Source of the DNA: Candidatus Binatia bacterium
GTDB taxonomy: Bacteria; Desulfobacterota; Binatia; Bin18
DNA: 41,692 nucleotides
Reading direction: 5' to 3'
NCBI GenBank assembly: GCA_022824615.1
Contig: JAJDZM010000270.1
Coordinates: 1 to 41,692, forward strand
Made by a program: the position numbers and the translations under genes. This document shows positions 10,377-22,173 of the stretch, piece by piece (within the stretch, counting starts at the first letter, position 1; each line of letters opens with the position of its first letter). A model generated the notes under the pieces. It saw only the letters and a program-made list of their open reading frames with translations. It was not told where the DNA came from and searched no databases.

Positions 10377-10646
10377 GTGGGGCGTTATCGTTGGAGTTCT
10401 GAAAAAAGCCTTCAACTCAAGAGGTTAAGGGGCATTAGTTTTGAGCAAGCGGTCATGCACATTGAGCAGGGCGATGTGCTTGATATTATTATCCATCCAA
10501 ACCCGAACAAGTATCCTGGCCAGCAGGTACTCATCCTGAATATTAATGGATATGCTTATGCCGTTCCCTTTGTCGAACAAGGAGAAGACCGTTTTTTGAA
10601 GACCATTATCCCGAGCCGAAAACTTACGAAACAATATCTCAGGTGA
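10377..10646 (+). CDS. BrnT-like toxin (RNase-type)
   Basis: An 89-residue protein with the pattern of BrnT/DUF4258-like toxins: Y-R-W-S-S-E-K at the N-terminus, the R-G-I-S-F-E-Q-A helix (residues about 18-26), DIIIHPNPNKYPGQQVLILNINGYAYAVPFVE, and the C-terminal F-L-K-T-I-I-P-S-R-K-x-T-K-Q-Y-L that is a hallmark of the group. BrnT toxins cleave mRNA during stress. A GTG start is used because it gives the expected N-terminus; no strong ribosome site is seen. The antitoxin gene follows after three bases. The local base composition is more AT-rich than the flanks, a sign of transfer. Confidence 0.75.
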   Translation: MGRYRWSSEKSLQLKRLRGISFEQAVMHIEQGDVLDIIIHPNPNKYPGQQVLILNINGYAYAVPFVEQGEDRFLKTIIPSRKLTKQYLR

Positions 10647-10649
10647 TCT

Positions 10650-10931
10650 ATGCCAAAATATTATCTAGACGATGAAGAAAAGGAACTCATTGAGTCTGTT
10701 GAGAAGGGTGAGTGGCAATCGGTCAAAAAGGTCAAACAAGAGATCAAGAAGCATCAGACGTATGCCGCGAATACTCTTCGAAAAGACAAGCGAGTGAACA
10801 TCAGAATTTCTTCTCAGGACTTAGAGCAGCTCCAGGCCAGAGCGGTAGAAGAGGGTATTCCATACCAGACGCTCATGGCGAGTGTCCTCCATAAATTTAT
10901 TTCTGGACGTCTCGTGGAGCGGTCTCGATAA
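10650..10931 (+). CDS. CopG/BrnA-like antitoxin
   Basis: A 93-residue protein. The C-terminal half has K-R-V-N-I-R-I-S-S-Q-D-L-E-Q-L-Q-A-R-A-x-E-E-G-I-P-Y-Q split into the beta strand and two helices of a ribbon-helix-helix (CopG) fold, ending with the T-L-M-A-S-V-L-H-K-F helix. The N-terminal half is charged and probably wraps the toxin. It should neutralise the BrnT-like protein encoded three bases upstream and repress the shared promoter, where a perfect spaced inverted repeat is present. Toxin before antitoxin is the normal order in BrnT systems. Confidence 0.75.
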   Translation: MPKYYLDDEEKELIESVEKGEWQSVKKVKQEIKKHQTYAANTLRKDKRVNIRISSQDLEQLQARAVEEGIPYQTLMASVLHKFISGRLVERSR

Positions 10932-12257: not shown

Positions 12258-13493
12258 ATGACGACACAAGCGCACAATAGGGACTCAGGCACGAGCAGCA
12301 CAGTCTGGCACGAGGCTTACCCGGAGCTCGGAACCGGGCCGATTCCGATTGAGCCGTGTGTTTCAGCCGAATACTTCGAGTTGGAGCGAGAGCGCATTTA
12401 TAAGAAGACCTGGCTCAATGTGGGCCGCATCGAACAGCTTCCTCGGCCTGGAGATTATTTTGTTAAAGACCTGACCGTCTGTGACACGTCGGTTATCCTG
12501 ACGCGCGGCCGGGACGGCGTCCTGCAAGCGTTCCATAATATGTGTTCCCACCGGGGTAATAAGATCGTGTGGGATCAGCATGGCTCGTGTCAGAATTTTA
12601 CGTGTAAATTCCACGGCTGGAGCTACGGTCTCAACGGCAGCCTGAGATTCGTTCCGGATGAAGAACGCTTCTGCGACCTCAAAAAAGACCGGCTCGGTCT
12701 CACGCCGGTCCGGGTCGATGCATGGGAAGGTTTTATTTTTATCAACCTCAACCCGACCCCTACGGAAACCCTTACCGAACATCTCGGCGAGCTTGGAGCC
12801 GGATTGGAGGGCTATCCGTTTGCGCAGTTGAAGACCTGCTATGCCTGGCATACGGAACTGAAGGCCAACTGGAAAGTGCTCAAGGATGCCTTTCACGAAG
12901 CCTATCATGTGCCCTTCTTACATAAACGCTCCCTGCCCGATTCGTTTACCAGCCCGGACAATCCGTATGCCCACGCTTTTGCGTTTAAGCTGTATGCACG
13001 CAACCACCGCATGTCCGTCTTTGGGAACCCCGGCCATCAGCCGAGCCCGGTCGAACTCCTGGCCCATCGCTTCGGAGCGTCAATTGTCAGACGCGACTGG
13101 GAGATGGCTGACTTACCGCCGGGGGTGAATCCGACCCGGAGCCCGTTTTGGGCCTTCGACGCCAATATGATTTTTCCCAATTTCGATGTGTTCGTTTTTG
13201 ACGGCACTTACCTGACGCACCATTTCTGGCCGCTCGCGCCGGACCGGACCCTCTGGGAAGTCAAGACGTATTTCCCCGACGCTCGCAACGCCGCGCAGCG
13301 TTTCAGCCAGGAGTACAGCAAGGTGCTGCTGCGCGAGGCCCTGCTGGAGGATGCCAGTACCCTGGAGGCAACCCAATCCATGCTGGCCTCAGGCGCGAAA
13401 AAAGAATTTGTGCTCCAGGACCAGGAACTCCTGGTCCGGCACGGGCATAAAGTCATCGAGGACATGGTCGGTTTCTACCGGGCCAGGGCCTAA
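12258..13493 (+). CDS. Rieske non-haem iron oxygenase alpha subunit (copy 1)
   Basis: A 411-residue oxygenase alpha subunit. The Rieske [2Fe-2S] ligands are Cys96-x-His98 and Cys116-x2-His119 (CSHRGN ... CKFHGW). The mononuclear iron site is in NWKVLKDAFHEAYHVPFLH: Glu214, His217 and His222. These enzymes insert O2 into aromatic or other C-H substrates using electrons from a ferredoxin or reductase, none of which is encoded in the window. ATG 12258 is chosen because a G-run ribosome site (AGGGGGGATT) precedes it and paralogs begin at the same place; a GTG at 12165 would add 31 unrelated residues. Copy 2 follows after 147 bases with no 108-residue partner gene between them. Confidence 0.92.
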   Translation: MTTQAHNRDSGTSSTVWHEAYPELGTGPIPIEPCVSAEYFELERERIYKKTWLNVGRIEQLPRPGDYFVKDLTVCDTSVILTRGRDGVLQAFHNMCSHRGNKIVWDQHGSCQNFTCKFHGWSYGLNGSLRFVPDEERFCDLKKDRLGLTPVRVDAWEGFIFINLNPTPTETLTEHLGELGAGLEGYPFAQLKTCYAWHTELKANWKVLKDAFHEAYHVPFLHKRSLPDSFTSPDNPYAHAFAFKLYARNHRMSVFGNPGHQPSPVELLAHRFGASIVRRDWEMADLPPGVNPTRSPFWAFDANMIFPNFDVFVFDGTYLTHHFWPLAPDRTLWEVKTYFPDARNAAQRFSQEYSKVLLREALLEDASTLEATQSMLASGAKKEFVLQDQELLVRHGHKVIEDMVGFYRARA

Positions 13494-13640
13494 ATGCCGG
13501 CAGTGTGATATTGACCAAAAGGCCAGAACATGTTTTAGATTCGGGCTTCACCACGTCGTGTGTGTCCCGACCGGGTTCCCGGTCAGCGAATATGGACATC
13601 GGACCATGGAATAGGAAAACCAACCCAGGGAGGCAATGGA

Positions 13641-14930
13641 ATGAGTGCAACACCAAACGGAACTCTGGCAAACGGCAACGGCGCGGCCGGCGGCTATAAG
13701 TGGCATAATAAATATCCTCATCTCGGGACCGGCCCGGTTCCGGCGGATGTGTTCACCTCGCAAGAGCAATTTGAGTTGGAGCGGGAGCGGATTTTCAAGA
13801 AAGTCTGGCTGAACGTCGGGCGGGTGGAACGGATTCCGAATGCGGGCGACTATTTTGTCCAAGACCTGGCCGTGTGTAATACCTCGGTGATTGTTGTCCG
13901 CGGTAAAGACGGGGCCGTGCATGCCTTTCATAATATGTGCTCGCACCGGGGGAATAAAATCGCGTGGGACAAGGACGGGACGTGTCAGAATTTCACCTGC
14001 AAGTTTCACGGCTGGAGCTACGGCCTGGATGGGAAGTTGAAGTTCGTGCCGGACGAAGAGAGCTTTTTCGATCTCAAGAAAGAGAGTCTGGGTCTGACAC
14101 GGGTGGCGGTGGATGTGTGGGAAGGTTTTATCTTCGTCAATGTCGATCCCAATCCGACCGAGACCCTACAGGAGTATCTGGGCGACCTGGCAACCGGACT
14201 GGAGGGCTACCCATTTGGCGAATTTTCAACCACCAGTACCTCGTGGACCTCGGAGGTGAACGCCAACTGGAAAGTCATCAAGGATGCCTTTCAGGAAGTG
14301 TACCATATTGCCTTTTTGCACAAACGCTCCATCCCGGACTCGTTTACCAGCAAAGACAACCCCTACGCCCACAGCCTGGATGCCACCCTGTATCCGCGCC
14401 ACGGCAGTATGTCGTTGTTTGGCAGCCCAGACTACAAACCGAGTCCGGTAGCCAAACTGGCGGCCCAGTATGGGGAGATTGTCATCCGTAGCGATTTCTC
14501 GATGGACGGTCTGCCGGCAGGGGTAAATCCGCTGCGGAGCGAAGCCTGGTCGCTGGACCTGAACGTCATCTTCCCGGCCTTCTTTGTTGACGTTTCCCAG
14601 GGATCGTATTTTACCCATCAGTTCATGCCGATTGGCGTGGATAAGACGCTGTGGACCTCGACTCAGTATTACACCAAGGCGACCACGCCGGGGCGGCGTT
14701 TCAGCCAGGAATACGGCAACGTGATCTTCCGCGATATTATCATGGAAGATGGCCGGACCTTTGAGGAAACCCAGTCCATGCTCTCGTCCGGGGCAAAAAA
14801 AGAGTTTTATCTGCATGACGAAGAGATTCTTATCCGCCACAGCCATCATGTCATCGACCAGATGCTCAAGGGACAACCCGTCGATGCGGCGTTTGCTGCC
14901 AATGGAAAGGAGGCGGCTTCCCATGCCTGA
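13641..14930 (+). CDS. Rieske non-haem iron oxygenase alpha subunit (copy 2)
   Basis: A 429-residue paralog of copies 1 and 3. It keeps CSHRGN and CKFHGW as [2Fe-2S] ligands and NWKVIKDAFQEVYHIAFLHK for the iron centre (Glu, His, His). The N-terminus has a low-complexity Asn/Gly/Ala stretch (ANGNGAAGG) before the conserved YPHLGTGPVP segment, and the C-terminus is longer by an Ala-rich tail. ATG 13641 has a clear AGGGAGG ribosome site eight bases before it. The gene's 3' end overlaps the 108-residue partner gene by eight bases, so the two are translationally coupled. Divergence from copy 1 suggests different substrates or a hetero-oligomer. Confidence 0.92.
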   Translation: MSATPNGTLANGNGAAGGYKWHNKYPHLGTGPVPADVFTSQEQFELERERIFKKVWLNVGRVERIPNAGDYFVQDLAVCNTSVIVVRGKDGAVHAFHNMCSHRGNKIAWDKDGTCQNFTCKFHGWSYGLDGKLKFVPDEESFFDLKKESLGLTRVAVDVWEGFIFVNVDPNPTETLQEYLGDLATGLEGYPFGEFSTTSTSWTSEVNANWKVIKDAFQEVYHIAFLHKRSIPDSFTSKDNPYAHSLDATLYPRHGSMSLFGSPDYKPSPVAKLAAQYGEIVIRSDFSMDGLPAGVNPLRSEAWSLDLNVIFPAFFVDVSQGSYFTHQFMPIGVDKTLWTSTQYYTKATTPGRRFSQEYGNVIFRDIIMEDGRTFEETQSMLSSGAKKEFYLHDEEILIRHSHHVIDQMLKGQPVDAAFAANGKEAASHA

Positions 14931-15249
14931 GGCACGCTTACCCGAGCAGTTCCGGGATTTGGAGCAATGGATGGCCTGGTCGTTGGAAACCGAAGGCGAG
15001 CGGAGCGACCACCGTCAGGCCAGCGCCATGGAAGACATCACCGCCTTTTATGAGGCCATGCTGGCGCGCATGGACGAGGTGCTGCCCTATCTGGAGCAGT
15101 TCAGCCTGGAGGAACTCCCGGACGACGCCCGGCACTTGTTTTACCTGACGCTGTCCCTGGCGGAAGTGGCGCCAGCGGTTGAGCAGTTCGGCCAACCCAG
15201 CGTGGTGGACGGATACGACATCAAACGCTTTGTCGCCACCCACAGATAG
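14923..15249 (+). CDS. 108-residue helical Rieske-associated protein (copy A)
   Basis: A small acidic, mainly helical protein of unknown function. It shares length and core with the protein at 19724-20050: W-x-L-x-T-E-x-E-R, R-Q-x-S-x-M-x-D-I-x-A-F-Y-x-A-M-L, Y-L-x-Q-F-x-L-E, A-R-x-L, L-S-L-A-E-x-A-P-A-V-E-x-F-G-Q-P and a final D-x-x-R-F-V. The start overlaps the Rieske copy 2 stop, with GGAAAGGAGG just before it. It is not like the cystatin-fold beta subunits (about 160-190 residues) of ring-hydroxylating dioxygenases. Repeated coupling to Rieske alpha genes argues for an accessory, assembly or substrate-delivery role, which is an inference. Confidence 0.8.
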   Translation: MPEARLPEQFRDLEQWMAWSLETEGERSDHRQASAMEDITAFYEAMLARMDEVLPYLEQFSLEELPDDARHLFYLTLSLAEVAPAVEQFGQPSVVDGYDIKRFVATHR

Positions 15250-15293
15250 GACACGCAGCAGTCGTAATACGACCCCGCGTGTCAGGAGGAGCC

Positions 15294-16394
15294 ATGAAAG
15301 TCGGTGTTGATATTATTCATCAGAACCTGGGCCGGCCGCAGCCCGACCACGAGGTGTATCGGGAGGAACAACGCTTAGCCGACCTGGTTGAACCCCTGGG
15401 GTTTGATTCGTTGTGGAGCGTTGAGCACCACTTCGACGATTACACCATGGTGCCTGATGTGCTCCAATACCTGACTTTCATGGCCGCCCGGACCACGCGC
15501 ATCCAGCTTGGCAGCGCGGTTGTGGTGTTGCCGTGGCACGACCCGGTGCGCGTTGCCGAGCAAATCGCCATGCTCGATATTCAGTCCGGGGGCCGGCTGC
15601 TGCTCGGCTTTGGCCGGGGAGCCGCGCAGATTGAATACGACGGCTTTCGCGTCGCCATGGACACCTCGCGGGCGCGTTTTACCGAGGCCGCCGAAGTAGT
15701 CACCAAAGCCCTCATGAATGAGCGCTTCTCGCATACCGGCGAATTCTATCAGATTCCTGAAATGAGCATCCGTCCGCAGCCCTATACCGACTTTACGGGC
15801 CGGATGTATGGAGCGGCCATCAGCCCCGAGTCGGCCGAGATGATGGCTCGGCTCGGTTTTGGGGTGTTGGTGATTCCGCAGCGCGACTGGGACACCACCG
15901 CCGAAGAGCTGGAACGCTATAACGCCATTTGTCGGAACCTGGGCAAGGAACCGGTCAAGCCCATTGTCGGCTGCTTTGTCTATGTTGACGACACCGAGGC
16001 CAAAGCCATGGACGGCGCCCGTCAATATATGGGGGCCTATTGGCAGTCGGCGGATGAGCACTACCGTTTTTCGCATGGTGCACACGCTGGCGTGAAAGGC
16101 TACGAGTACTACGACAAAATGGGCCAGGCCAGCAAACAGATGGGGCCGCAGGCGGTCAACGATTATTTCATCAGTTTTCAGTGCGTGGGCACGCCCGAGA
16201 TGTGTTTGGAGAAGATCGAGTTTATTAAGAATAAGGTCGATACCGAACACTTTATCGGTATTTTCAAATACGGTGGGATGCCCATACAGCGGGCGGAAGA
16301 AAACCTGCGCCGTTTTGCCGCAGACGTGATGCCGGGATTGCACCGGGAAGACTTTCGCGTCCACGCCGAGCCCGCTGTGGCTGTAGCCGATTAA
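15294..16394 (+). CDS. LLM class flavin-dependent oxidoreductase
   Basis: A 366-residue luciferase-like monooxygenase. Family marks are FDSLWSVEHHFDDYTMVPDVL (residues about 36-56, with the EHHF signature), RIQLGSAVVVLPWHDPVRVAEQIAMLDIQSGGRLLLGFGRG, and the C-terminal FIGIFKYGGMP with a helix reading AEENLRRFAADVMPGL. Such enzymes use FMNH2 or a reduced deazaflavin with O2. ATG 15294 is chosen because CAGGAGGA lies just upstream and the first beta strand (MKVGVDII) begins there. It follows the Rieske copy 2/partner pair by 44 bases, so it may act in the same pathway. A decayed C-terminal end of a similar gene lies at 34307-34467. Confidence 0.88.
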   Translation: MKVGVDIIHQNLGRPQPDHEVYREEQRLADLVEPLGFDSLWSVEHHFDDYTMVPDVLQYLTFMAARTTRIQLGSAVVVLPWHDPVRVAEQIAMLDIQSGGRLLLGFGRGAAQIEYDGFRVAMDTSRARFTEAAEVVTKALMNERFSHTGEFYQIPEMSIRPQPYTDFTGRMYGAAISPESAEMMARLGFGVLVIPQRDWDTTAEELERYNAICRNLGKEPVKPIVGCFVYVDDTEAKAMDGARQYMGAYWQSADEHYRFSHGAHAGVKGYEYYDKMGQASKQMGPQAVNDYFISFQCVGTPEMCLEKIEFIKNKVDTEHFIGIFKYGGMPIQRAEENLRRFAADVMPGLHREDFRVHAEPAVAVAD

Positions 16395-16438
16395 GGCAGG
16401 CAGAAGCCGCGGACGACCCCGTATGCCAGGAGAGAGCT

Positions 16439-17095
16439 ATGAAAGCCCTCTTTACTCTCGTAGCCGTTACTACCCTGGCCGGTTCTCTTGCTTGGGCCGA
16501 CACGTCCAACAGCCACGAGCAAAAAAACACCCAGCAGTACGGGAACTGTCTTGTGTCCACCGGCGTAGACATGTTCACGGATGAAGAGACTTACGATGTC
16601 TCCTGCTTCGGGGGGGAGACATCCCCGTACCTTCACATCTACTTCCAAAGCGAACATGGCCTCTCCCTGGTCATCAACGCAGGGGTTCAGGCTCACTTTG
16701 AAGCGACCATTCCGGTACTGATCCGTGTAGACAAGGGCGAACTCATCCGCCGCTCTGCTCACTGGCTGCCCGAAAGCATAAAGGGTAACGCACACATCTT
16801 TGACGACCAGGCCCTCATCCGCCACCTCTTGCATGACTTGGCTCGCGGACAGAAAGTCCACATTCAAGTTGGAACCGAAAGAGGAAGTATTCCCCTCAAC
16901 GGTGCAAACCGGGCCATTCAGGATTTCCGCCGCCGGGCCGGACTCATCTACCAACAATCTTTGGAAATCTCACCTCCGCTCACCCCAAAACAAGAGGTTG
17001 ACCGCACGGTGAAGTGCCTCATGTCTTGTGATGAGCAAGGGCGTGACCACATCTCAGCGGCTCAGTGTATGGAAAACCCTTTGATCTGTAACTAA
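16439..17095 (+). CDS. Secreted protein of unknown function
   Basis: A 218-residue protein with a signal peptide (basic start, hydrophobic Leu/Val/Thr core, likely cleavage at A-W-A|D after residue 20). The mature part contains strands such as YLHIYFQSE and IPVLIRVDKGELI, then a helix with ALIRHLLHDLARGQKVHIQVG, a layout resembling small periplasmic proteins of the IalB type; this match is weak. Six Cys lie at the two ends (NCLV, VSCFG, KCLMSCDE, QCME, LICN), perhaps as disulfides. AGGAGAG precedes the ATG. It begins the three-gene block that separates the Rieske copy 2 group from the decayed partner gene at 18299. Confidence 0.65.
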   Translation: MKALFTLVAVTTLAGSLAWADTSNSHEQKNTQQYGNCLVSTGVDMFTDEETYDVSCFGGETSPYLHIYFQSEHGLSLVINAGVQAHFEATIPVLIRVDKGELIRRSAHWLPESIKGNAHIFDDQALIRHLLHDLARGQKVHIQVGTERGSIPLNGANRAIQDFRRRAGLIYQQSLEISPPLTPKQEVDRTVKCLMSCDEQGRDHISAAQCMENPLICN

Positions 17096-17147
17096 CCACC
17101 CATCCCTTTCATTGTCATGCTACCCGGCAACCGCGCTAGAGGGCAAA

Positions 17148-17738
17148 ATGCGCTCTTTCTCCGATTTAGATGAGGCTGTTGTCATAGACGTAGAGACAAC
17201 CGGGTTATCGCCAGAAACAGACCGGATCATATCCGTATCTATGTTACGGGTGCGATTTTCCTCACTTCAACGTAACCCCAACCATCTGGAGGGAGACACG
17301 CTGGACGCGGAGTTCAACCCGCGGCGCAAGATTCCAGTAGCAGCGACGCGGGTTCACGGCATCACGAACGAGGATGTCGCCGACAAAGGCCCGTTTGCTG
17401 AGAGCGCCCAGCAACTCCGGGATTTCATCGGCACCTGTCCGATTGTCGCCCACAATGCCGCCTTTGACAAAGCGTTCTTGAGCGCTGAGTTCAAGCGAGC
17501 AGGGGTGAGAACATTGCAGCGGAATAAGAGCTACTGCACGATGTTGCGCTATCAAGACATGAACGGTGGTCGGCGCACAGGCAGCAACTTGGACACAGTG
17601 TTGCAACAGTTCGGTATTCCTGGGCGTAGCGGTCGGCTCCATCTGGCCGATGAAGACGTGCGCCTGACCTGCGCTATAGCGCGAGAATTCTACCTGATAG
17701 ACAACGGGTTAATATCGGCTCCCTCAAATGAGGCATGA
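17148..17738 (+). CDS. DEDDh 3'-5' exonuclease (DnaQ-like)
   Basis: A 196-residue exonuclease of the DnaQ/RNase T fold. Exo I reads V-I-D14-V-E16-T-T-G, Exo II is IVAHNAAFDKAFL with the H-N-A-x-F-D core, and Exo III is H-L-A-D-E-D-V-R. The metal-binding acidic residues and the general-base His are all present, so it should be active on DNA or RNA ends. There is no polymerase or other domain attached. ATG 17148 is preferred over a TTG at 17112 because the N-terminal strand starts there and GAGGG lies just before it. It may belong to a transferred block with the genes on either side. Confidence 0.82.
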   Translation: MRSFSDLDEAVVIDVETTGLSPETDRIISVSMLRVRFSSLQRNPNHLEGDTLDAEFNPRRKIPVAATRVHGITNEDVADKGPFAESAQQLRDFIGTCPIVAHNAAFDKAFLSAEFKRAGVRTLQRNKSYCTMLRYQDMNGGRRTGSNLDTVLQQFGIPGRSGRLHLADEDVRLTCAIAREFYLIDNGLISAPSNEA

Positions 17739-17831
17739 CCGGCACCAGGATGGGAGACCCGTTCGTGCGAAACCCGGACTCTTCAGAGCCTTCTGGGATT
17801 TTGTGATGAGGTAGAGATAGACGAGGAGCGG

Positions 17832-18290
17832 ATGGAATTATCTGTGCTGATCGGGGTGATAGGTCTCGCCATTGGCGCCATTAGCCTATGGATCGGGCTG
17901 GTACGCTTCCGGGAACGACACGGACAGCCGGACATTCGCGCCCAGACGTTTGGGCGCCCCAAGAAATCTGCTTCCCCTAACTCGGATTCTGAAGCCCTCC
18001 AAGTCAACTTTCATCAGCCGACCGATTCGTCAAAGTGGCTGGTATATGAGGTTCGCACTGACTCGCGCCAAAGCCGATGGATTGCTGTACTTCAAGGCGA
18101 CCGTCGCGAAGGCTCCTGGACGAACAGAATCCGCTATGATCCTCCTGTCAACAGGGGGTCATTTCTGCTGCACCCCGACGTTTCTAAGCAGCCGAGACTT
18201 TCATTCCACGCCTGTTTGAAATCTCATGTTCGCATTAAGCGGAAAGTGAACATTATCCCTACGGAGGGTATCACCTCTCTAGCTTATTAG
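17832..18290 (+). CDS. N-terminally membrane-anchored protein of unknown function
   Basis: A 152-residue protein. Residues about 3-25 form one hydrophobic helix (Leu/Ile/Gly-rich), followed by a basic stretch (RFRERH), so the rest is probably cytoplasmic. The soluble part is beta-strand rich (WLVYEVRTD, RWIAVLQGD, GSFLLHP, LSFHACLKSHVRIKRKVNI) and could be a small sandwich domain. No family is recognised. GAGGAGCG precedes the ATG. The stop codon is followed after only eight bases by homology to the 108-residue Rieske partner gene, which marks the right edge of the inserted block. Confidence 0.55.
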   Translation: MELSVLIGVIGLAIGAISLWIGLVRFRERHGQPDIRAQTFGRPKKSASPNSDSEALQVNFHQPTDSSKWLVYEVRTDSRQSRWIAVLQGDRREGSWTNRIRYDPPVNRGSFLLHPDVSKQPRLSFHACLKSHVRIKRKVNIIPTEGITSLAY

Positions 18291-18298
18291 GGTTCCCG

Positions 18299-18421
18299 AT
18301 GGCCAGCTGTGTGGTCAATATGACCCTCTCGCTTACCGAGATTGTGCCGGCGGTTGAGCTGTTTGGTCAGTCGTAAAAAGATGGTACGTTTGACCCGTTT
18401 CGATTTGTTCCACAACATCAA
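18299..18421 (+). pseudogene. Decayed 3' end of a 108-residue Rieske-associated gene
   Basis: The plus strand encodes M-T-L-S-L-T-E-I-V-P-A-V-E-L-F-G-Q-S, then a TAA at 18374-18376, and in the same frame K-D-G-T-F-D-P-F-R-F-V-P-Q-H-Q. This matches the end of the intact gene at 19724-20050 almost residue for residue. The intact Arg codon CGA is TAA here, and the normal stop is gone. Only the last 40 or so codons remain. It is the tail of a lost third partner copy. Confidence 0.85.
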
Positions 18422-18457
18422 GGACGAGAGGAAACGGCCTGATAAAGGGAGGGAGCA

Positions 18458-19711
18458 GTGAAGGACAGGCAGCCGACCGGCACTGGAGAGCATGCGGCTC
18501 CTGACCGGAGCGACGACCGCTGGAATGATAAGTATCCGTATCTTGGGACCGCTCCGATTCCCATCGAGCCCTACATCTCTCGTGAGTATTTTACCTTAGA
18601 GCGAGAACGTATCTTTCGGAAAGTCTGGCTGAACGTCGGCCGGATTGAACGCATCCCGAACCCCGGCGATTATATCGTCGTCGCGCTGCCGGTATGCCGG
18701 ACCTCGGTCGTGGTCGTTCGTGGGAAGGACGGTTATCTCCATGCTTTTCACAATATGTGTTCCCACCGGGGGAATAAGATTGTCTGGGATCATAAGGGCT
18801 CGTGTCAGAACTTTACGTGTAAATTCCACGGCTGGAGCTATGGCTTGGATGGCCGACTGACTTTCATCCCTGACGAACAGGGTTTCTGTGGCTTGCAAAA
18901 AGACAAGCTCGGACTGACCCCCGTGGCCGTGGATACCTGGGCGGGCTTCATCTTCATTCATCTTGATCCGCACCCGACCGAAACGCTGCGGGCCTACCTG
19001 GCGGAGGTTGTGCCTGGGCTGGAAGGCTATCCATTCCCAGAGCTTTCGGCGACGCGCTTCTGTTGGCGAACGGAGATTAAAGCCAACTGGAAAATCGCCC
19101 AAGACGCCTTTCAAGAGGGCTATCACCTGCCGGTGCGCCATAAGGCAACGGCGGCAGGCGCCTTTACGAGCGGAACCAACCCGCATTGCCACTTCCTGAG
19201 TCTGGACCTCTACGAGCGACATCGTCGCACCTCGTCGTACGGCAATCTGAACTATCAACCAACGCCGGTCGCAGGGAGGGCTTATCAGTTCGGGAGTTCG
19301 GTGGTGGTTGATCGTGATATTACTCTGGATAATCTGCCTGCTGGGGTCAATCCGACCCGACGGTCGGACTGGTCCATTGATACTTTCTGGATCTTCCCGA
19401 ATTTCTCCATTTTCCCGAGCAATGGGACCTACCTGACCCACCAGTTCTGGCCGATTACCGAAGAGCGGACGATATGGGAAACGCACACGTATTTCCCCAA
19501 GGCGGAAAACGCAGGTCAGAAATTCAGCCAGGAGTACAGCAAGGTATTGCTCCGCGACATTCTCATGGAAGACGGCACCACGCTGGAACACATGCAGGAC
19601 GTGTTGGCCTCGGGCGCCAAAACCCATATGCCGTTGCAGCATCAGGAAATCTGTGTCCGCCACGCCTATCGCGTGGTGGAGGATTATGTTGGGTTCTATG
19701 CGGGACGGTAA
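18458..19711 (+). CDS. Rieske non-haem iron oxygenase alpha subunit (copy 3)
   Basis: A 417-residue paralog of copies 1 and 2, beginning with GTG after an AAAGGGAGGGAG ribosome site. The [2Fe-2S] site is CSHRGN ... CKFHGW and the iron site lies in NWKIAQDAFQEGYHLPVRHK (Glu, His, His). The N-terminal segment YPYLGTAPIPIEPYIS is shared with copy 1, while ATAAGAFTSGTNP replaces the LPDSFTSPDNP loop of copy 1 near the active-site entrance, hinting at another substrate. Its partner gene starts 12 bases after its stop, and a VOC gene follows, so alpha, partner and VOC form one apparent operon. Confidence 0.92.
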   Translation: MKDRQPTGTGEHAAPDRSDDRWNDKYPYLGTAPIPIEPYISREYFTLERERIFRKVWLNVGRIERIPNPGDYIVVALPVCRTSVVVVRGKDGYLHAFHNMCSHRGNKIVWDHKGSCQNFTCKFHGWSYGLDGRLTFIPDEQGFCGLQKDKLGLTPVAVDTWAGFIFIHLDPHPTETLRAYLAEVVPGLEGYPFPELSATRFCWRTEIKANWKIAQDAFQEGYHLPVRHKATAAGAFTSGTNPHCHFLSLDLYERHRRTSSYGNLNYQPTPVAGRAYQFGSSVVVDRDITLDNLPAGVNPTRRSDWSIDTFWIFPNFSIFPSNGTYLTHQFWPITEERTIWETHTYFPKAENAGQKFSQEYSKVLLRDILMEDGTTLEHMQDVLASGAKTHMPLQHQEICVRHAYRVVEDYVGFYAGR

Positions 19712-19723
19712 CGGAGCAGAACG

Positions 19724-20050
19724 ATGACGGAGAGCGGCTGGCCCGCAGCGTTCCGCACACTTCAGCCTTTTCTCGGCTGGGCACTCGCCACCGAGGCCGA
19801 GCGGACGCAGAAACGTCAGACGAGCGAGATGGCGGACATCCAGGCCTTTTACAACGCCATGCTGTCGCACCTGGAGGACATTCTTGTGTACCTCAACCAA
19901 TTCCCTCTGGAGCACATGCCGCCCCATGCCCGGCAACTCATGGATATGACCTTCTCGCTCGCCGAGATTGCGCCGGCGGTCGAGCTGTTTGGTCAGCCGC
20001 GAGAAGATGATACATTTGATCCGTTTCGATTTGTTCCGCAACATCAATAA
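19724..20050 (+). CDS. 108-residue helical Rieske-associated protein (copy B)
   Basis: A paralog of the protein at 14923-15249 with identical length. The shared core includes F-L-G-W-A-L-A-T-E-A-E-R, R-Q-T-S-E-M-A-D-I-Q-A-F-Y-N-A-M-L, V-Y-L-N-Q-F-P-L-E-H-M-P, A-R-Q-L and F-S-L-A-E-I-A-P-A-V-E-L-F-G-Q-P. It contains no Cys, no metal motif and no signal peptide, so it should be a cytosolic helical protein. It follows Rieske copy 3 by 12 bases and precedes a VOC gene by 11 bases. The unknown function is probably tied to its oxygenase partner. Confidence 0.8.
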   Translation: MTESGWPAAFRTLQPFLGWALATEAERTQKRQTSEMADIQAFYNAMLSHLEDILVYLNQFPLEHMPPHARQLMDMTFSLAEIAPAVELFGQPREDDTFDPFRFVPQHQ

Positions 20051-20061
20051 AGGAGGTCGGT

Positions 20062-20556
20062 ATGATTCGCCCCGAACGGATTGCCCATGTTGTGTTGAAG
20101 GTGCGCGACCTTGAACGTTCAAAGAAGTTCTACACCGAAGTGCTGGGGATGCAGGTCATGAAAGACACACCTGAGATTAGGGGAGTCTTCTTGGCCAATC
20201 ATACCCGCGACCACCATGAGATTGCCCTTTTCCAGATCGGTCCGGACGCCGAGTCGCCCCGCCCCGACCAGGCCGGACTCGCCCATATTGCCTTTCGGTT
20301 GCGGAGCGAAGCGGAACTCAAAGCTGCCTATGAAGAACTCAAGGCGAAGGACGTGCCGGTGAACTTCACCGTAAACCACGGGATAACCAAGAGCGTCTAC
20401 TTCCTCGACCCGGACGGCAACGAGCTGGAAGTCTATTGCGACAACTCCATAGAAGAGTATGCGGGGATGCCCAACGCCTATCTGGGGACGGACAAGCTGG
20501 AATTCGCTCCGAACGAGCGCGGTCTGGCGGACGTGATTGCCTCGTTGCGGCAGTGA
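20062..20556 (+). CDS. VOC family dioxygenase/glyoxalase-like protein
   Basis: A 164-residue vicinal-oxygen-chelate protein with two beta-alpha-beta3 modules. Likely metal ligands are the His in R-I-A-H-V-V-L (residue 9), the His in G-L-A-H-I-A-F (about 76), and the Glu in N-E-L-E-V-Y-C-D (about 126), with HHEIALF between modules. The pattern DPDGNELEVYCD resembles type I extradiol dioxygenases and fosfomycin-resistance-like proteins. Placed in the operon of a Rieske oxygenase, ring cleavage of a catechol-type product is plausible but unproven; it is shorter than classical two-domain extradiol enzymes. AAAGGAGG precedes the ATG. Confidence 0.85.
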   Translation: MIRPERIAHVVLKVRDLERSKKFYTEVLGMQVMKDTPEIRGVFLANHTRDHHEIALFQIGPDAESPRPDQAGLAHIAFRLRSEAELKAAYEELKAKDVPVNFTVNHGITKSVYFLDPDGNELEVYCDNSIEEYAGMPNAYLGTDKLEFAPNERGLADVIASLRQ

Positions 20557-20727: not shown

Positions 20728-22173
20728 ATGGGCATTCGGACCGGCGCAGAATACCGAGAGAGTTTGCGGGATGGACGGAGCATTTATGTAAATGGCGAGC
20801 GGGTCAAAGATGTGACGACCTACCCGCCATTCCAAGGGGTGGTGGATACCATTGCCTCTCTGTACGACCTTCAACACCAGCCTGCGCATCAGCCCCCATT
20901 GACCTACCCGTCTCCCAAGGACGGCCAACCGGTCGGACTCTCCTTTCTGATGGCGGACAGTGTCGAAGATGTCGAACGCCGCGTCCGGGCCGAGGAATTT
21001 CGGGCGGAGGTGACCTGTGGCTTGATGGGCCGTATGCCGGACTTCATGAACGCGTTGGTAACGGACGCCGCGATTGCCGCGCCGTTTATCGGTCAACGTG
21101 AGCCCCGTTTTGGTGAGAATACCCTGCGTTATTACGAAGCCTGCCGGGACGAGGACTGGTGCCTGACCCATACCCTGGTTGATCCCCAGATCGACCGCTC
21201 AAAAGGGCCGGCGGAACAACGTGATCCCGAGGCGGCTTTGCATGTGGTGCGCGAGACGGACAATGGCATCGTGGTCAGCGGCGCCCGGATGCTTTCCACG
21301 CTCGCCCCCTTTTCCAACGAACTCTGGGTGGGGCCATTCTATCCGCGCAAACCGGGAGAAGAAGCCTATACCCTCTGCTTTGCCGTTCCCATGGATACCC
21401 CAGGCCTCAAGTTTATCTGTCGTGAAGCTTATAACACGGGCCGGAGTCGGTTTGATCGCCCGTTGTCGTATCGGTTTGATGAAGAAGACGCCCTCGCCGT
21501 TTTCGACACCGTCGAGGTGCCCTGGGAGCGGGTGTTCATTAACGGTGATATCGAGGCCTCCAACTACATCCTTGGCCGGGCGCCCGGCTACGCCCTGCTC
21601 CAGGCGGTCATTCGCGGAACCGTTAAGCTCCGTTTCATGGCCGGGCTGGCCTGTAGCGTGGCCGAGGCAATCGGCCGGACCAAGGCGCAGCATGTCCAAG
21701 CCCAGCTCGGTGAGTTGGTGGCAAACGTTGAAATTGCCAACGGCCTGTTGCGGGCGGCGGCGCACAATGTTGTCACCAATCATAAAGAAGGAGGGTCGCT
21801 CCGTTCGCTCGCCGCCTCGCTGTGGGTATTTATTCCACAGGCGCAGATGCGGGCGGCTGAGGTCATCCGCCAGGTCAGTGGCAGCGGACTGATCATGACA
21901 CCCACGGAAGGAGATCTGCAAAACCCGGAGATCGCGCCCTATCTCGAGCGCTATCTCCAGGGCAAAAACCTGTCGGCGCGCAATCGGGTGCAACTCTTCA
22001 AGTTGGCCTGGGACATGTTGGGTGAGCAGTTCGGCAGCCGTCAGTTGCAGTACGAATGGTTCTACGCGGGTGATCCCACGTTTACCCGGTCACGTTTTTA
22101 CCACTCTCCCGCAGTGAAAGGGTATAAAGCGATGGTGGAGCGAATCCTGGACGAGGGGAAGAGCGCAGGCTAG
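20728..22173 (+). CDS. HpaB-family FADH2-dependent monooxygenase
   Basis: A 481-residue protein of the 4-hydroxyphenylacetate 3-monooxygenase oxygenase family. It starts with the family-typical M-G-I-R-T-G-A-E-Y-R-E-S-L-R-D-G-R, followed by YVNGERVKDVTTYPPF. Other marks are the HTLVDPQIDR segment (about residue 150), the GARMLSTLAPFSNELWVG loop, a VPWERVFINGD strand and a C-terminal helical part with QVSGSGLIMTPTEGD and FGSRQLQYEWFYAGDP. These enzymes hydroxylate phenolic rings using FADH2 from a separate reductase (HpaC type), which is absent here. With Rieske and VOC genes nearby it fits aromatic breakdown. Confidence 0.9.
   Translation: MGIRTGAEYRESLRDGRSIYVNGERVKDVTTYPPFQGVVDTIASLYDLQHQPAHQPPLTYPSPKDGQPVGLSFLMADSVEDVERRVRAEEFRAEVTCGLMGRMPDFMNALVTDAAIAAPFIGQREPRFGENTLRYYEACRDEDWCLTHTLVDPQIDRSKGPAEQRDPEAALHVVRETDNGIVVSGARMLSTLAPFSNELWVGPFYPRKPGEEAYTLCFAVPMDTPGLKFICREAYNTGRSRFDRPLSYRFDEEDALAVFDTVEVPWERVFINGDIEASNYILGRAPGYALLQAVIRGTVKLRFMAGLACSVAEAIGRTKAQHVQAQLGELVANVEIANGLLRAAAHNVVTNHKEGGSLRSLAASLWVFIPQAQMRAAEVIRQVSGSGLIMTPTEGDLQNPEIAPYLERYLQGKNLSARNRVQLFKLAWDMLGEQFGSRQLQYEWFYAGDPTFTRSRFYHSPAVKGYKAMVERILDEGKSAG

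Follow-up and report, generated by a model that had tools for sequence, protein, structure and literature searches.

An unnamed family of small proteins, predicted to be helical, dedicated to one clade of Rieske oxygenase alpha subunits

Described Rieske systems and the alpha clade

Rieske oxygenases play a key part in the breakdown of pollutants and in selective oxidation. In the alpha3beta3 dioxygenases (naphthalene, biphenyl, 3-phenylpropionate), the alpha subunit has the same domains and metal ligands as the alphas analyzed here, and a small second gene lies directly behind the alpha gene, as it does in our clade. However, the beta subunit of these dioxygenases is a PF00866/SnoaL-like protein, whereas the small protein encoded behind our alphas (hereafter the partner) is all-helical in its model and has no such match. 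Carnitine oxygenase CntA has been reported to be an alpha3 oxygenase that has CntB as its reductase, and its residue E205 carries inter-subunit electron transfer in the alpha3 trimer; the available part of this account mentions no such partner (PMC7948474). In the NdmCDE caffeine N7-demethylase, the glutathione-S-transferase-like, non-redox protein NdmE was postulated to act structurally alongside an oxygenase of a Rieske system (PMC4408171). With NdmE of this type and NdmC devoid of a Rieske cluster, the comparison with our clade is an analogy only. Literature searches for an accessory helical Rieske subunit found no description of one.

In a FastTree tree with a root chosen on a distant paralog, the partnered alphas all group in a single clade (103 tips, support 0.863; 0.989 when one partnerless sister is included). 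The ligands of the Rieske cluster (C-x-H ... C-x-x-H) and of the 2-His-1-carboxylate site are kept in this clade, C100, H102, C120, H123, H222, H227 and D370 (A6 numbering) being invariant. The inter-subunit "bridging" position is Glu, not Asp, in 102 of the 103 clade alphas; the remaining Rieske proteins of the window's genome mostly carry Asp there. In this bridging Glu the clade alphas are like CntA. The CntA/GbcA/stachydrine demethylase group also gave the best fold matches of a clade alpha model, with CntA structures first, and in comparison with this group no classical beta gene stands beside the clade alphas in their own genome. Unlike CntA, the clade alphas lack the Cys pair by the iron ligands, where Cys is not one of the frequent residues, and Tyr203, with F or Q at position -2; the NCBIfam GbcA model scored 115-133 bits on them against a cut-off of 670. 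Since the Cys pair and Tyr203 are missing, the clade is CntA-like and, by these features, not a member of the group.

The window, its genome and the partner protein

The window (41,692 nucleotides) is contig C86 of a 4.98-Mb genome of a Candidatus Binatia bacterium, and the features of the locus are listed in Table 1. The initial annotation had described three Rieske alpha paralogs, two 108-residue partner paralogs behind two of them and a third partner copy surviving as a decayed tail, and all of its coordinates hold. All three alphas are intact and pass the curated cut-offs of PF00355 (Rieske) and PF00848 (Ring_hydroxyl_A), and the two partners share 51% identity along their whole length (BLASTP E=1e-37). 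The decayed tail and the end of the partner copy at 19724 share 87.5% DNA identity across 104 bp, indicating that the tail is a duplication remnant. It lies upstream of alpha 3 and not behind alpha 1, and therefore gives no evidence of an earlier partner for alpha 1. The tandem of a partnerless alpha 1 with alpha 2 is kept in the genus, and a related tail-only remnant is present in a sister genome (L060/L082). No electron-donor gene was recognized among the window neighbours examined. The stretch between both alpha-partner pairs (16439-18290) shows indel differences among sister genomes; it contains two ORFs without a Pfam family match (16439-17095 and 17832-18290) beside an exonuclease-domain protein (17142-17738). 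At 10377-10931 there are two small overlapping-operon ORFs, which we take to resemble a BrnT/BrnA toxin-antitoxin pair.

Table 1. Features of the alpha-partner locus in the window
Feature	Position	Strand	Remarks
Rieske oxygenase alpha 1	12258..13493	+	411 aa; in tandem with alpha 2; without own partner
Rieske oxygenase alpha 2	13641..14930	+	429 aa
Partner 1	14923..15249	+	108 aa; 8-base overlap with alpha 2 stop
Luciferase-like monooxygenase (neighbour)	15291..16394	+	PF00296
Decayed partner tail	~18311..18421	+	in-frame TAA
Rieske oxygenase alpha 3	18458..19711	+	417 aa; GTG start
Partner 2	19724..20050	+	108 aa; 12-base gap after alpha 3 stop
Glyoxalase/dioxygenase superfamily protein (neighbour)	20062..20556	+	PF00903
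HpaB-type 4-hydroxyphenylacetate 3-hydroxylase family (neighbour)	20728..22173	+	PF11794, PF03241

The whole genome encodes 30 Rieske domains and seven full partners, which align as a clear family with 22 invariant columns. Six of the seven adjoin a complete Rieske alpha; the seventh (on contig C243) lies at a contig end, preceded by alpha C-terminal sequence, and at the end of contig C224 there is a clade alpha that is truncated 3'. The genome also has four clear PF00866 beta genes, all beside Rieske genes outside the clade and none beside clade alphas. In this genome, a beta gene accompanies the classical alphas, and a partner gene takes its place beside those of the clade. The 30 Rieske domains stand against one FAD_binding_6 reductase domain; many of these oxygenases may share few electron donors or rely on other donor families.

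The AlphaFold2 model of the partner has five main helices (mean pLDDT 85) and a loose C-terminus, and the protein is predicted to be all-helical on this basis. W19, R27, R31 and L72 are invariant across 101 partner sequences, few polar residues are conserved, and none of the columns is a conserved Cys or His. A bound iron-sulphur cluster or metal is therefore unlikely. dN/dS among partner orthologs is 0.05-0.29, that is, the gene is under purifying selection. Searches of Pfam, NCBIfam, PHROG and PDB sequences found no family match for the partner, and a Pfam scan of 30 + 7 members gave none either, including PF00866 and SnoaL-like families. Thioredoxin_12 and Peptidase_C78 appeared as marginal Pfam hits; they were below cut-off and not common to the members, and were rejected. 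Fold searches with the model returned common helical arrangements only (best Foldseek E=2.3, best VIA Z=5.3). A beta subunit, which has a mixed alpha/beta fold, was rejected on the all-helical model and the missing PF00866/SnoaL-like match, and a ferredoxin or reductase on the missing Cys/His columns and family match. The earlier statements that the partner is none of these three and bears no family name in Pfam, NCBIfam or PHROGs are thus borne out, and the partner matches no known beta-subunit or unrelated enzyme family. Natural alpha-partner fusions were looked for and none was found. A read-through model of alpha plus partner (TAA read as Gln), built in search of docking, folded with moderate confidence and carries no interface measure.

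Linkage, distribution and gene context of the family

We collected 102 distinct partners from Binatia, from a class that contains an Acidimicrobiaceae MAG and from catabolic plasmids. Ninety-nine of them have a Rieske alpha next to them on the same strand; most of these gaps are within 30 bp, and some of the genes overlap. Two of the other three lie at contig ends, and the one clear exception is a Cupriavidus necator plasmid partner that stands alone before an apparent cupin gene; the order of partner and cupin-like gene also occurs in Azospirillum and Paroceanicella, there together with an alpha. Thus, members of the family are not mostly found apart from Rieske genes. As the partner had served to retrieve these loci, a reverse test was run with an alpha profile on 56 genomes, in which a partner was counted within 300 bp. 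Of the 108 clade alphas in Binatia genomes, 80 come with a partner of their own, another 8 are in tandem with a partnered alpha, 4 are cut by a contig end and 16 are solo. Partners are thus strictly tied to an alpha, whereas an alpha is less strictly tied to a partner. The solo alphas fall mostly into few ortholog groups, and their motifs are intact where examined; with filters off, no hidden partner was found beside the solo-alpha loci that were fetched, apart from one pseudogene. This suggests that the alpha probably manages without a partner in some lineages. The "obligate" accessory role first proposed finds no support in that wording, as about 16 of the 108 clade alphas are solo and alpha 1 of the window has no partner of its own. 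Two loci (L076 and L081) show the reverse of the usual order, with two tandem units in which the partner comes first (partner-alpha-partner-alpha). At another (L204, 1273-2869), the sequence behind a divergent alpha is related to the partner but interrupted by a stop, an apparent decayed pair.

Distances between alphas correlate with those between partners (61 pairs, r=0.80), and re-pairing of paralogs within genomes attains this value in only 15 of 5000 trials. Thus, partners duplicate and diverge with their own alphas, and the co-duplication with one Rieske subgroup, first noted in the window, is supported. Seven full partners in one genome, adjacency in 99 of 102 cases and the dN/dS of 0.05-0.29 argue that the partner-alpha link is not due to chance. 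We conclude that the partner represents a genuine protein family, without a name, that belongs to a single clade of Rieske oxygenases.

A profile search of sampled genomes, together with a single-protein scan, showed that this family covers several phyla. The partner was found in 7 of 7 genomes of the genus, in 9 of 9 other sampled genomes of the family and in 3 of 42 other genomes of the class; an even sample of the wider phylum gave 1 of 297 genomes, which is the window's own only. It was also found in 22 of 345 genomes of the class containing an Acidimicrobiaceae MAG and in 1 of 398 genomes of the phylum of a MAG titled Gammaproteobacteria. The genomes that bear a partner are those that have clade alphas. 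Fourteen plasmids carry the partner, from sphingomonads, Cupriavidus, Acinetobacter, Variovorax, Rhodococcus and others, and it is annotated there, where at all, as "hypothetical protein". A record titled Klebsiella pneumoniae (CAMBFS010000120.1, L062) carries an alpha and a partner 76% identical to Binatia ones; this contig and G309:C120, from a genome of the same family, appear to be one and the same, and the Klebsiella record is probably mislabelled.

The pathway genes around the alpha-partner pair vary from locus to locus, and the pair itself stays. The Variovorax locus has 2,5-dihydroxypyridine dioxygenase genes nearby, and the Acinetobacter plasmid locus has genes for a formamidase, a SnoaL-like protein, a StyA-like monooxygenase, a flavin reductase, an SDR, a ferredoxin and a reductase. 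The order and spacing of this Acinetobacter cluster match A. piscicola p38 genes 1684, 1687, 1688 and 1690, and an alpha, a StyA-like monooxygenase, a flavin reductase and a ferredoxin are shared with the skatole-induced p38 set (1684-1690). Genes 1684, 1687 and 1690 of p38 were reported as skatole-induced, and gene 1685 finds no mention in that report (PMC11434297); gene order, rather than sequence, suggests that 1685 would be the partner. The partner is found both with and without SnoaL-like proteins. In the lineage of the Acinetobacter locus, including the C243 locus of the window's genome, a SnoaL_4 protein follows it. Since the partner co-occurs in some lineages with such a SnoaL-type beta-like protein, it adds a component rather than simply taking the place of a beta.

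Role of the partner

Genetic linkage, co-duplication, clade restriction, sequence conservation and the predicted helical fold together point to a dedicated small ("gamma") subunit of this clade of Rieske non-heme iron oxygenases. Among the possible roles, that of a structural subunit has the best support, and we give it an even chance. The clade alphas would form the usual C3 trimer, in which electrons would pass from the Rieske cluster of one subunit to the iron of its neighbour, with the bridging Glu as the route. The partner, whose gene comes immediately after that of the alpha, would bind this trimer and support its assembly or stability, presumably without carrying a redox cofactor. Somewhat short of even is the further proposal that the partner is an undescribed further kind of oxygenase subunit that defines a multi-phylum, Glu-bridged clade and is needed for activity of the paired alphas.

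The main rival is an assembly factor that binds the nascent alpha transiently, aids its folding or the loading of the Rieske cluster or catalytic iron, and then leaves. Such a factor would yield the same genomic pattern as a subunit: the partner is small, helical, cofactor-free and encoded directly behind the alpha, paralogous cognate pairs would co-evolve as well, and solo alphas could borrow a partner in trans. However, one partner per alpha across many paralogs in a genome exceeds the expected need for a general factor, and the partner has no conserved Cys or His with which to carry iron or sulphur, so that we regard this role as unlikely. The partner might also be a docking adaptor, which lets the alpha trimer take electrons from a shared ferredoxin or reductase; this would fit a genome where 30 Rieske domains face one FAD_binding_6 domain, so that donors may be shared, and a window whose examined neighbours include no recognized donor gene. 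Nevertheless, the partner occurs beside PDR-type/VanB reductases at some loci and Rieske-type ferredoxins at others, and solo alphas of the same genomes are without it. Electron-donor docking, one of the roles proposed in the initial annotation, is weakened by these different donor types, and we consider it quite improbable. The interpretation of that annotation is thus supported in part: for a protein of no known component type, unnamed and dedicated to one subgroup, but not for its obligate character. The catabolic neighbour genes would also suit a separate pathway protein, such as a substrate carrier or small enzyme, that serves the same substrate route and does not bind the alpha. This is the least probable reading, and a very doubtful one, as the surrounding pathway genes change between loci while the pair persists, and the protein offers little for catalysis, with Cys and His absent from its conserved columns and polar residues rare there.

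Whether by the structural role that we prefer or by assembly, the partner is likely to be a subunit or an assembly factor that has escaped notice. One plasmid cluster that bears it resembles a skatole-induced gene set. If the partner is needed, expression of paired oxygenases without it would fail, and its absence could simply explain an apparent lack of activity of such enzymes expressed on their own. A recurrent, unannotated partner of this kind would supply a component so far missing from an entire clade of Rieske oxygenases, in Binatia, in the class containing the Acidimicrobiaceae MAG and in plasmid catabolic clusters.
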